DNA from: Deltaproteobacteria bacterium
GTDB taxonomy: Bacteria > Desulfobacterota > Desulfobaccia > Desulfobaccales > 0-14-0-80-60-11
DNA: 33,614 nt
Assembly: GCA_016874915.1 (NCBI GenBank)
Contig: VGSW01000022.1
Span: 1-33,614, forward strand
Direction of reading: 5' to 3'
The stretch's first letter is position 1. Each line of letters begins with the position of its first letter. The notes under the pieces were generated by a model that did not search any database, was not told the origin of the DNA, and saw nothing but the letters and a program-made list of their open reading frames with translations. Shown piece by piece: positions 533 to 4,693 of the stretch. A program made the position numbers and the translations under genes.

Positions 533-1096
533 ATGAAGCGAAAAACTTGGGTTTTTCTCCTGGCAGGATGTCTGGCCCTGCTCTTTTTCCTCCACGGCCT
601 GGCAGTGGCGGCCGATGTGGAGCCTAAGGTAGGGCAAACGCTGGGCAAAGTGAAATTTCTCAAACCCCTGTCCGACGAGGATGCCAAATACCTGGGGCTG
701 GACAAGGCCGCGGAATTCACCCTGAAGGACATTAAAGCGCCTTATGTCTTCATTGAATCCATGAACACCGCCTGACCGCATTGCATAGCCCAGGCTCCTG
801 GGCTAAACAAGCTTTTCGAAATGGTGCAGGCGGACGCGGCTCTTAAGGACAAGGTCAAATTTATGGCGGTGGGCCAGGGCAACGACGAAATGGCCATGAA
901 GATGTGGAAGGCGGTGTACAAGGTTCCCTTCGCCTTGATCGCCGACCCCAAGAGCACTTTTGGGGACGCCCTGAATTTCCATCCCTATCCGGTTACCGTG
1001 CTATTGGATAAAAGCGGGAAGATTCTGATTGCGCACATCGGCACCTTCGATAGCGCCGAGGAAGTTTTTAAAGAATTAAAGAAGACTGTTAAATAA
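533..1096 (+). CDS. Thioredoxin-fold selenoprotein with UPHC redox motif, exported (UGA = Sec at 773-775)
   Basis: Two same-frame open stretches are separated by a single TGA at 773-775 and no other stop. Read through, they give a 187-residue protein with Sec at residue 81. An N-terminal signal peptide (MKRKTWVFLLAGCLALLFF, likely cut near AVAA, residue 26) predicts a periplasmic protein. The local motif is N-T-A-U81-P-H-C84, a CxxC-type redox site with Sec for the first Cys; CPHC is also the active-site motif of DsbA. The C-terminal half (FALIADPKSTFGD, YPVTVLLDKSGKILIAHIG) looks like a redoxin/TlpA-type thioredoxin fold with the expected cis-Pro before VTVL. A perfect hairpin follows the UGA (786-805). 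The start has a GGGGGGAC ribosome site. Expected role: thiol-disulfide or peroxide reduction in the envelope; the substrate is unknown. A nonsense mutation is unlikely given intact coding on both sides and the Cys at +3. Standard gene calling would split it into two false ORFs. Confidence 0.85.
786..805 (+). promoter_or_regulatory. Bacterial SECIS-like hairpin
   Basis: TAGCCCAGGCTCCTGGGCTA forms a perfect 8-bp stem with a GCTC tetraloop, starting 10 nt after the UGA. The apical loop begins 18 nt after the UGA and its first base is G. This fits the known bacterial SECIS pattern (short stem, apical loop roughly 16-37 nt downstream of UGA, G among the first loop bases). It lies inside the coding sequence, as bacterial SECIS elements do, and would recruit SelB. 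The selenium genes selA, selB, selC and selD are not in this window. Confidence 0.8.
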
Positions 1097-1170: not shown

Positions 1171-1620
1171 ATGGATATTAACGCCATCCTGGTGGCCACG
1201 GATTTTTCGGAATGTTCCTGCGCGGCGTTTCAAACCGCCAAGAAGCTGGGCCAGGCTTTCGGGGCCAAAATTGTGCTGCTGCACGTCATTAATCAGATGT
1301 TTATCGAGCGGCTGGCGGAACATCTGAAGGTAGAGGAAGATTCCCTCCTTCCGGAACTCCGGGAAAAGGCCCAGCAACAATTGAGCGCCTTTTTGGAGAA
1401 GTGCTCCACTAAAGAAGAAGAGGTGGACTCCATGGTGGCCGTGGGCCTCCCCTTTCAGGAAATTGCCGTCATTTCCCGGGACCTGGCGGTGGACCTGATA
1501 GTGCTGGGCGGCTACGGCCGGCGGGGGCGGGGACCCATCGACGAGGTCTTTTTCGGCTCCACCGCGGAAAAGGTGGTGCGGCTGCTGCCCTGCCCGGTGC
1601 TGTGCGTGCCTTTGCAGTGA
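1171..1620 (+). CDS. Universal stress protein, UspA family
   Basis: A 149-residue single-domain Usp. The N-terminal strand NAILVATDFSE carries the Asp that contacts adenine, and the C-terminal GRRG-RGPIDEVFF-GST matches the ATP-binding signature G-x2-G-x9-G-S/T, so it is predicted to be an ATP-binding Usp. It ends PCPVLCVPLQ, the usual last beta strand. A GAGGGAA ribosome site precedes the ATG. It is 74 nt downstream of the selenoprotein on the same strand, so co-transcription is possible. The last codons (TTG CAG TGA GCAGTTGGCAG) run straight into a heptamer array. Confidence 0.92.
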   Translation: MDINAILVATDFSECSCAAFQTAKKLGQAFGAKIVLLHVINQMFIERLAEHLKVEEDSLLPELREKAQQQLSAFLEKCSTKEEEVDSMVAVGLPFQEIAVISRDLAVDLIVLGGYGRRGRGPIDEVFFGSTAEKVVRLLPCPVLCVPLQ

Positions 1621-1782: not shown

Positions 1783-2244
1783 CTACACCGGAAAATCCAC
1801 CTTGATTTTAAATACCTCGTAGGCTGGCAGGCTTAACACCTCCATGCCAGACGCCTTCGAAATCTCTTCCAGAATCCGATTCAGTCTGTCTTCCGACTCG
1901 GCGATGAGGGTGAACCAGACGTTGTAACGGTGGCGCCGCAGGTAGTTGTGGGTTACCCCGGGGTGGCGGTTCACCACTTCCACGAAATTTCCCAACTGCT
2001 CCGGGGGCACGCTGGCGGCGCACAGGGTGCTGGTGTAGCCCAGCTTGCGGGAGGTGAAATTGGCCCCGATGCGGCGGATGACTCCGGCGTCGCACATGGC
2101 CTGCACCCGCCGGATGACTTCCACTTCCGAGGCCCCTACCCTTCTCCCCACTTCCTCATAGGGCCGGGTCATAATGGGAAAATGGGATTGGATTTCGTTG
2201 AGGATGGCTTTGTCTAAGTCGTCCAATTGAGGGGGCAATGACAT
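1783..2244 (-). CDS. ahbA: Siroheme decarboxylase alpha-type subunit (Lrp/AsnC fold)
   Basis: A 153-residue protein with an N-terminal winged helix (LDDLDKAILNEIQSHFP, then RPYEEVGRRVGASEVEVIRRV) and a C-terminal AsnC-like domain. The stretches AGVIRRIGANFTSRKLGY, STLCAASVP, HPGVTHNYLRRHRYNVWFTL and the end AYEVFKIKVDFPV match my memory of the AhbA side of the AhbAB siroheme decarboxylase; AhbB usually has RRFGA and AMVAW instead. AhbAB removes two acetate carboxyls from siroheme to give 12,18-didecarboxysiroheme in the heme pathway of sulfate reducers and archaea. It is the last gene of hemB-ahbD-ahbA, separated from ahbD by a palindromic repeat. An ahbB partner is not visible here. A plain Lrp regulator is less likely given the neighbours. 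Confidence 0.8.
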   Translation of the reverse strand: MSLPPQLDDLDKAILNEIQSHFPIMTRPYEEVGRRVGASEVEVIRRVQAMCDAGVIRRIGANFTSRKLGYTSTLCAASVPPEQLGNFVEVVNRHPGVTHNYLRRHRYNVWFTLIAESEDRLNRILEEISKASGMEVLSLPAYEVFKIKVDFPV

Positions 2245-2261
2245 AGGGTCGGCCTTTTAAT

Positions 2262-2392
2262 TTAACCACTAAGATCACGAAGATCACACGAAGTTTCACG
2301 AAGATAATCATTTGCTTTGGGGCCGGAAGGCCCCAAAGCAATTTATTTTTCTTGGTGTATCTTAGTGTGTCCTTCGTGCCCTTCGTGGTTTA
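2262..2392. repeat. Palindromic repeat: hairpin flanked by CACGAAG-type arms
   Basis: The centre is a perfect 13-bp stem (2312-2324 with 2329-2341) with a GGAA loop. It is flanked by imperfect inverted arms built from short repeated units: AACCACTAAGATCACGAAG on the left, and CTTAGTG, CCTTCGTG, CCTTCGTGGTT on the right. It lies inside the heme operon between ahbD and ahbA. It has a T-rich 3' flank only on the + strand, so it is not an obvious terminator for the minus-strand operon, but the RNA hairpin could affect ahbA expression or mRNA stability. Confidence 0.8.
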
Positions 2393-2404
2393 TCTTTTGA
2401 ACTT

Positions 2405-3478
2405 TTAACCTATGGGCGAATAGGGGCAAATAGGGTCCTCGGCCAGGACGTCGCCGGTCATGGCGTAGGCCCTGGCCCGGCAGCCGCCGCAGACCTTGCG
2501 GTATTGGCAGGAGTGGCACTTGCCCCGGTATTCGTCCACCGCCCTAAGCTTCTTAAAAAGCTCCGAATTGGCCCAGATTTCCGGGAAGGGCGTTTCCCGA
2601 ATATTTCCCGCCAACAACTCCAGGTAGCCGCAGGGCTGCACCTCGCCCTTATAAGAGACGAACGCGAAGCCCTGCCCTCCCAGGCAGCCCTTGGTCATGG
2701 CCTCCATGCTGTGGGAGGCCGGGGTGATCTTCTCCCCCCGGGCCTGGGCGTCCTGGCGCCACAGGCGGTAATACTGGGGCGCGCAGGTGGGCTTGATGAA
2801 GAGGCGGCCTTCCCGCTGGCGATCCAGGAGCCAGCGCAGGGTCTGGTCATATTCTTCCGGTGAGACCAGATCGTCCCGGAGCTGCTCTCCCCGGCCCATG
2901 GGCACCAGGACGAAGACGTGGTGGGCCGCGGCCTCGAGGTTGATGGCCATCTCGTGGATGGCCGGCAGCTCCACCAGGTTGGCCTTGGTGATGGTGGTGT
3001 TGATCTGAAAAGGCATTCCCACTTCCCGGCAGGCGGCGATACCGGAAAGCGCGCCCTCGAAGGCCCCCTCCACCGCCCGCAGGCGGTCATGGGAGGAGGC
3101 GGTGGCCCCGTCGATGGAGATGCTCAGGCGCTGGATGCCCGCGTCTTTAAGCCGGGCGCCGATCTGGGGGGTGAGCAGGGTCCCGTTCACCGCCATGACC
3201 ATGCGGTGGCCTTTACGGGCGCCGTAGGCCGCCAGGTCGTAAATGTCCTCCCGGAGCAGCGGCTCGCCCCCGGTCATGATGACCACAATCTGACCCATGG
3301 CGGCCAGATCGTTGAGCAAGGTTATGCCTTCGTCGGTGGTCAGCTCCCCCGGATACGGCCCGGACCCCGCCGCGGCCCGGCAATGGAGACAGGCCAGGTT
3401 GCAGCGCCTGGTAGTCTCCCAGGCCAGGAGGCGCAGGGGGGGGATTTTTATATCAGATGGAATTGCAGGATGTTCCAT
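2405..3478 (-). CDS. ahbD: Heme b synthase, radical SAM/SPASM enzyme AhbD
   Basis: A 357-residue radical SAM protein. The SAM cluster motif is TTRRCNLACLHCR (Cys26, Cys30, Cys33) and the GGEP motif is at about 70-73. The C-terminal auxiliary Fe-S region carries TKGCLGGQG, QPCGYL, GKCHSCQYRKVCGGCRARAY and DPICPY, a SPASM-type cysteine set. KPTCAPQYYR and the C-terminal pattern fit AhbD, which oxidatively decarboxylates two propionates of Fe-coproporphyrin III to make heme b, rather than AhbC. It starts 21 nt after the hemB stop codon, consistent with an operon. NirJ or another SPASM maturase is the main alternative. The ribosome site is weak (GGA at 6 nt). Confidence 0.82.
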   Translation of the reverse strand: MEHPAIPSDIKIPPLRLLAWETTRRCNLACLHCRAAAGSGPYPGELTTDEGITLLNDLAAMGQIVVIMTGGEPLLREDIYDLAAYGARKGHRMVMAVNGTLLTPQIGARLKDAGIQRLSISIDGATASSHDRLRAVEGAFEGALSGIAACREVGMPFQINTTITKANLVELPAIHEMAINLEAAAHHVFVLVPMGRGEQLRDDLVSPEEYDQTLRWLLDRQREGRLFIKPTCAPQYYRLWRQDAQARGEKITPASHSMEAMTKGCLGGQGFAFVSYKGEVQPCGYLELLAGNIRETPFPEIWANSELFKKLRAVDEYRGKCHSCQYRKVCGGCRARAYAMTGDVLAEDPICPYSPIG

Positions 3479-3499
3479 GTTTTTCCATGAAAAAATGTT

Positions 3500-4468
3500 T
3501 TAGGCTAACAGTCCCGCCGCCTCTTTAGCAAAATAGGTCAGAATCAAATCTGCGCCGGCGCGTTTAATCGAGATCAGCGACTCCAGCATCACCGCTTCTT
3601 CGTTGAGCCAGCCTTTTTGGGCCGCGGCTTTGATCATGGAATACTCGCCGCTCACCTGGTAGGCGGCCAAAGGCAGGTTGAACTCCTGGCGCAGTTGGGC
3701 CAGAATGTCCAGAAAGGGCAGAGCCGGCTTGACCATTAAAATATCCGCACCCTCTTCCACGTCCAGCATGGCCTCCCGGAGGGCTTCCCGGGCGTTGGCC
3801 GGATCCATCTGGTAGGACTTGCGGTCCCCGAATTGGGGGGCGGAGGCCGCCGCGTCTCTAAAGGGGCCGTAAAAGCTGGAGGCGTACTTCACCGCGTAAG
3901 AAAGTATCGGCACCATCTCAAAGCCCCGCTCGTCCAGGGCCTCCCGGATGGCCGCGACGCGTCCGTCCATCATGTCCGAGGGGGCCACGATGTCCGCCCC
4001 GGCCTCGGCGTGGGACAAGGCCACTTGGGCCAGGAGCTCCAGGGTGGCGTCGTTGTCTATCTCGTTCCGCTCAATCACCCCGCAGTGGCCGTGGGAGGTA
4101 TAGCCGCAGAGGCAGACGTCGGTGATCACCACCAAGCCAGGGACTTCTTTTTTCAGGCGCCGCACCGCCTGCTGCACCGCGCCCTTGGGAGAGGCGGCTT
4201 CACTGCCGGTGTCATCCTTTTTTTGCGGCAAACCGAAAAGCAGGACCGCCGGGATGCCCAGGCCGGCCACGCTTTTAGCTTCTTCGGCCAAGAGATCCGG
4301 GGAGAAACGGCAGACTCCAGGCATGGAGCCCACCTCTTCGAGCACCCCTTTTCCCGGGACCGCGAACATGGGGTAAATGAGGTCTTCCCGGCGCAGGAAG
4401 GTCTCCCGCACCATCTTTCTCAAAGCATCCCGCCGTCTCAGGCGCCGGGGCCGGAATAAGAGTTCCAT
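3500..4468 (-). CDS. hemB: Delta-aminolevulinic acid dehydratase (porphobilinogen synthase)
   Basis: 322 residues from the ATG at 4468 ([14 protein letters not shown], the typical N-terminus). An upstream extension of 54 codons is open but runs through repeat DNA and is rejected; AAGGTG lies just before the chosen ATG. Active-site lysines are seen in [18 protein letters not shown] (Lys194) and [13 protein letters not shown] (Lys247, Schiff base). [14 protein letters not shown] supplies Cys119, Cys121 and Cys129, so this is the zinc-binding class. It condenses two 5-aminolevulinates to porphobilinogen, the first common step towards siroheme, cobalamin and heme. As first gene of hemB-ahbD-ahbA it ties early tetrapyrrole synthesis to the siroheme route. 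Confidence 0.96.
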
Positions 4469-4483
4469 AAAGCACCTTTTCTG

Positions 4484-4552
4484 GGTTTTCGGTTTTCGGC
4501 AACCGATGGGGCGCAGTGGGCGCCTTACATTAAGGTTTTCGGTTTTCGGTTT
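4484..4552. repeat. 7-bp repeats (GGTTTTC type) upstream of hemB
   Basis: Two short runs of CGGTTTT (4484-4499 and 4533-4552) flank a GC-rich spacer just upstream of hemB. The whole gap 4469-4821 holds these repeats, a candidate promoter for speD, and nothing else recognisable. Confidence 0.75.
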
Positions 4553-4693
4553 GTTTCTCCGGACGCCAGCCCAATCCAATTTTGATGACTTCCCTCTCCC
4601 CATTGTTAATCCCTGGGAGGCGCATGTCAAGGAAAGGAGAATGGCGGGGCCACCCGGCGCTGATGGAAAAACCAGGTTTTGACTGAAATTCTG

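Follow-up and report, generated by a model that had tools for sequence, protein, structure and literature searches.

An in-frame UGA codon predicted to encode selenocysteine in an apparently exported redoxin of a Desulfobaccales bacterium

Bacterial selenoproteins of the redoxin type have been catalogued, and the 2026 catalogue of prokaryotic selenoproteins lists three kinds that come close to the gene described here: a 'Redoxin family protein' (PF08534, UxxC; PMC13188914), a 'Prx-like thiol:disulfide oxidoreductase' (PF00578, UxxC/UxxU; PMC13188914) and a 'Thiol-disulfide isomerase-like protein' (cd02966, UxxC; PMC13188914, also PMC9312934). The Redoxin / Prx-like UxxC subfamily is represented in it by HEU0032618.1 and WP_010940744.1 (PMC13188914). 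Prx-like thiol:disulfide selenoproteins occur in Geobacter and other Deltaproteobacteria (PMC1794560, PMC13188914), already the richest group in 2006, and repeated conversion of Cys to Sec is known in thiol oxidoreductases (PMC1794560). Our literature search found no paper on such a selenoprotein in the Desulfobacca group, and nothing was found on envelope selenoproteins.

We analysed a gene of this family in a window of 33,614 nucleotides, i.e. the whole stretch of DNA under study (contig VGSW01000022.1, assembly GCA_016874915.1). Its product is recognized by Pfam as Redoxin (42.8 bits for a cut-off of 26.6, 5.8e-11) and as AhpC-TSA (40.6 bits for a cut-off of 26, 2.9e-10), and with both domains above cut-off and a UPHC motif it falls into the Redoxin / Prx-like UxxC subfamily. 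The comparison with the catalogued Redoxin family selenoprotein (PMC13188914, Table 1) is one of family and motif, both having PF08534, the best match here, and UxxC, whereas a class-specific lineage, a signal peptide and the UPHC/UPYC site distinguish our gene. Family and motif also underlie the likeness to the Prx-like PF00578 selenoprotein (AhpC-TSA, UxxC, the same broad bacterial group), but for the UPHC redoxin the Redoxin score slightly exceeds that of AhpC-TSA. The UPHC redoxin is thus a member of a catalogued kind of bacterial selenoprotein; the original prediction, which had set it apart from the common types, overstated its rarity, since UxxC proteins of the redoxin, Prx-like and isomerase-like types are all on record (PMC13188914, PMC9312934).

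The reading frame across the UGA codon and its homologues

When TGA is translated as U, positions 533-1096 (Table 1) give one protein in which U81 lies within ...NTAUPHCIAQAP..., whereas the standard code (table 11) yields two ORFs, one of 80 aa (533-775) and one of 91 aa (821-1096). The original prediction had proposed that this UGA unites two coding halves of one redoxin that gene callers would split, with a Cys at +3, and the data bear it out on each point, Cys84 being invariant among the homologues. The domain that bears U81-P-H-C84 is preceded by a probable signal peptide, MKRKTWVFLLAGCLALLFFLHGLAVA; an AlphaFold2 model predicts an N-terminal helix at residues 3-27, and in the class alignment the N-termini of the homologues are hydrophobic too. 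Judged from this signal peptide, read by eye, the UPHC redoxin has an apparent envelope location.

Table 1. Coordinates of the features at the redoxin locus (positions in the window)
Feature	Position	Strand	Details and basis
Selenoprotein gene (predicted), redoxin (ResA/TlpA-like), 187 aa	533..1096	+	ATG 533, stop TAA 1094-1096; TGA=U translation, Pfam, 30 class homologues
Sec codon UGA (predicted), residue 81	773..775	+	TGA=U translation, homologue alignment
Resolving Cys84 (putative), codon TGC of UPHC	782..784	+	translation; invariant in homologues
Signal peptide (probable), ~residues 1-27, MKRKTWVFLLAGCLALLFFLHGLAVAA	533..613	+	by eye; probable cleavage near AVA-AD
Bacterial SECIS hairpin	786..805	+	stem 786-793/798-805, loop 794-797 GCUC, -13.0 kcal/mol
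Universal stress protein (Usp) gene	1171..1620	+	Pfam Usp 9.3e-27; stop TGA 1618-1620
Siroheme-dependent (Ahb) heme pathway genes ahbA, ahbD, hemB	1783-4630	-	conserved beside locus in class

The gene was searched for in 29 genomes of the class; 27 of them have it, among them each of the 22 high-quality ones. Position 81 was compared in 30 aligned class copies; it is Sec (TGA) in six, the window gene included, and Cys (TGC/TGT) in 24, with no other residue, and the downstream half is intact, as the proposal to look for Cys in homologues had anticipated. Three of the Sec copies have UPHC (the window's genome, G000; G020, of the same genus; and G016) and the three others are second copies with UPYC (G019, G004 and G017), each in a genome that also has a CPHC copy. 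These UPYC copies, 3 of the 6 TGA sequences, are non-syntenic, and no conserved neighbours were found around them; in the one in G017 (L054 / L074 around 7844) no 5' part can be recognised, and this copy may be in decay. Between G000, G020 and G016 the codons on either side of the TGA have a pN/pS of 0.15-0.24 (0.23-0.24 in the downstream half), and purifying selection acts on both halves around the UGA. Two distant redoxins from elsewhere in the phylum (L071, L072) have a TGA at the same active-site position, in UPVC (G108) and UPFC (G331), also with hairpins downstream, and these are possibly independent Sec acquisitions.

SECIS hairpin, selenium machinery and decoding of the UGA

The hairpin, TAGCCCAG-GCTC-CTGGGCTA, starts 10 nt past the UGA and has the perfect 8-bp stem and G-first loop of the original prediction. 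The published limits for a bSECIS are a UGA-to-loop distance of 16-37 nt, a loop of 3-9 nt with G in the first two positions, and a stem of 4-16 bp at no more than -7.5 kcal/mol (PMC13188914), and this element, with 18 nt, GCUC, 8 bp and -13.0 kcal/mol, lies inside all of them. Taken alone, the hairpin is an event of about 2% in this G+C-rich window, where 17 of the 957 TGAs are followed by an equally good one. When the same peptide was recoded synonymously 20,000 times with the codon usage of the window, a hairpin as good as the native one appeared once and -7.5 kcal/mol was reached in 7.4% of the recodings. Three features, a hairpin of this quality, a frame open for 30 codons or more on each side and a UxxC motif, coincide in the window at the TGA at 773-775 alone; no further convincing selenoprotein gene came out of this TGA scan of the window, and an Rfam search of the window gave no matches.

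One fixed bSECIS rule was applied to all the class copies. It finds the hairpin in 6/6 TGA genes, always exactly 18 nt from the UGA and between -9.4 and -13.0 kcal/mol, and among the 24 Cys genes none has a hairpin better than -3.7 kcal/mol. Across the TGA genes 97.9% of the stem cells are paired, to be compared with 17-48% in slid controls; the stem has changed once on both sides of a pair (C-G to A-U) and once on one side (A-U to G-U). The covariation is real, but since the stem has only two main sequences it is thin: one pair is altered on both sides, and 31 of 500 shuffles score as high. The loop is built from the codons of the conserved Ala-Pro in the QAP peptide which, together with the roughly 7% of recodings that come within the energy limit, shows with what ease such an element could arise.

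The genome of the window encodes SelA (624 bits), SelB (352 bits), SelD (380 bits) and, in two copies, tRNA-Sec (73.7 and 73.4 bits), and the check for selA, selB, selC and selD suggested with the original prediction is therefore positive for every component. The SelD gene (L081, G000:C101:6889-7803) has an in-frame TGA of its own (AGUAS) with a strong hairpin downstream, and a TGA in FTFVUPTE marks two closely similar peroxiredoxin genes (L088, G000:C214; L089, G000:C25) as candidate Sec-Prx; Sec thus appears to be used in several genes of this genome. The tRNA-Sec copies (G000:C117:4277-4370, L009, L076; G000:C13:33826-33919, L010, L077) differ from each other at a few variable-arm positions. 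Beside the C117 copy lies a tyrosine integrase gene (L076:4415-5527), which suggests an element integrated at selC that carries or duplicates the tRNA-Sec.

Taken together, the intact frame, the alternation of Sec and Cys, the SECIS hairpin confined to TGA genes, the full Sec machinery and the syntenic orthology constitute comparative evidence that strongly supports translation past the UGA and its reading as Sec. Two other readings of the codon have to be weighed against it. The TGA might be a genuine stop codon of a gene that has recently become a pseudogene, or it might stem from an error in sequencing or assembly, and what follows it would then be untranslated; the standard code does close the ORF at 775 and the source assembly is in 302 contigs with 5% contamination, but the same TGA is present at five other loci in other genomes, two of them orthologues in the same syntenic slot, the hairpin tracks the TGA exactly, and the low pN/pS of the downstream half is that of a translated sequence. 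Since the TGA recurs in five other copies and purifying selection is seen, we reject this explanation as very improbable. Alternatively, the UGA might be translated without selenium, either as another residue (for example Trp if the code has changed, or Cys) or through unspecific readthrough, and an open frame alone cannot show which residue is inserted. A close homologue (G004b) and the usp gene of the window, however, both use TGA as terminator, position 81 is Cys but never Trp in the relatives, and the complete Sec machinery and a SECIS-like hairpin in TGA genes only argue in the same direction; with the Cys/Sec-only alternation and the co-occurrence of the SECIS, such decoding was rejected and we give it hardly any credit.

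Locus organization and exchange of Sec and Cys

The gene order is, from upstream to downstream, the C-terminal part of a gene (17-358), the redoxin and usp, then, on the opposite strand, ahbA and ahbD, and it is seen class-wide in nearly every locus with a long enough stretch; usp adjoins the redoxin in 27/27 syntenic loci, and the upstream gene part (17-358) has no Pfam match. From this shared synteny, the Sec forms (G000, G020, G016) and the Cys forms are in-place alternatives at one chromosomal slot. A SelB match is found in 29/29 class genomes, 28 of them above the curated cut-off, and the Cys forms are therefore not due to a loss of the machinery. The syntenic locus of one genome (G011, L034) shows a local duplication, with a second, Cys-type redoxin copy, 37% identical, just past usp.

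The distribution of Sec on the gene tree requires two or more changes. A single clade of all six Sec genes is disfavoured (AU p = 0.0175), whereas the AU test does not reject a common clade for the three syntenic ones (p = 0.41). Published reports describe reversion from Sec to Cys as a rare event, known mainly from FdhA and SelD. We propose, tentatively and with some doubt, that at the syntenic locus Cys and Sec have replaced each other in place as the catalytic residue and that one of the changes could be such a reversion.

Fold and putative function of the UPHC redoxin

The best PDB sequence matches obtained with phmmer are Bacillus ResA, the first being a ResA variant engineered to CPHC. 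An AlphaFold2 model built with four sequences (pLDDT 80.5, pTM 0.73; the four other models were far less confident, 52-60) matches ResA (best), TlpA, DsbE/CcmG and StoA with a Foldseek probability of 1.00 and a target-normalised TM-score mostly of ~0.6-0.75. The UPHC redoxin thus resembles the extracytoplasmic thioredoxins ResA, TlpA and CcmG in its fold, its predicted export and its CxxC/UxxC site, but it differs from them by Sec in place of the first Cys, by a score well below the cut-off of the NCBIfam ResA model (NF002854; 41.6 vs 170 bits), which does not class it as a ResA orthologue, and by Gln87, which aligns with Glu80 of ResA. This Glu80, after the CxxC, is important in ResA. The original prediction had called the UPHC site DsbA-like, and this holds for the letters and spacing of the motif (CPHC in DsbA) but not for the fold, which is that of ResA/TlpA by Pfam, PDB sequence and Foldseek. 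There is no match to the DSBA domain (PF01323) at 1e-3 and no DsbA among the top 50 PDB folds, and membership in DsbA is ruled out by the Redoxin/AhpC-TSA and ResA/TlpA/CcmG matches.

From all these data, the product of the gene is very probably a thioredoxin-fold thiol-disulfide oxidoreductase that is exported and belongs to the ResA/TlpA/redoxin type, with Sec in place of the N-terminal catalytic Cys of the CPHC orthologues. In the mechanism that we propose, SelB with Sec-tRNA-Sec would recognise the hairpin past the UGA and Sec81 would be inserted without termination; the protein would then be exported to the envelope, where Sec81 could act as attacking selenolate and Cys84 as resolving thiol, electrons being exchanged with disulfides of envelope proteins, and a transporter of the CcdA/DsbD type, a family encoded twice in the genome of the window, would re-reduce it. 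In this scheme we infer Sec incorporation in vivo, export, reductive direction, redox partner and substrate, and the physiological role would be that of a periplasmic thiol-disulfide oxidoreductase, possibly a reductive one.

A more precise role could be that of a System II apocytochrome c reductase, i.e. the function of ResA, which would account for the nearness to heme-biosynthesis genes. The ResA-CcdA pathway is established (PMC3884852). ResA is the best structural match, ResB/CcsA-like proteins and CcdA/DsbD are encoded in the genome and the locus is conserved beside ahbA/ahbD; yet the heme genes are on the opposite strand and thus do not form one operon with the redoxin, ResB/CcsA sit on another contig, unlinked to it, and ResA Glu80 is replaced as described above. 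Moreover, the genome encodes a second, more ordinary ResA-like protein with CAPC (L090), and a dedicated role in cytochrome c maturation is therefore not implied for the selenoprotein; we consider this function unlikely. It is still less probable that the protein is a peroxidase of the peroxiredoxin kind: AhpC-TSA is matched too, but the site, SMNTAUPHC, is of the UxxC and not of the TxxU type, the PxxxTxxU active site of Sec-Prx is absent, the true Sec-Prx genes of this genome lie elsewhere and the best structures are ResA/TlpA. We thus retain the exported thiol-disulfide oxidoreductase as the best explanation.

The analysis corrects a gene that standard annotation would break into two pieces, and an envelope redoxin would be added to the selenoproteome of the Desulfobacca group. 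If the switch in place is true, the genomes in which a Sec paralogue stands beside a Cys orthologue would offer a natural series on the benefit of Sec in an envelope redoxin. The most useful aspect is the series of Sec and Cys orthologues at one slot with SelB everywhere: when one asks why Sec is kept or gives way to Cys, loss of the Sec machinery, the usual confounder, does not come into play.
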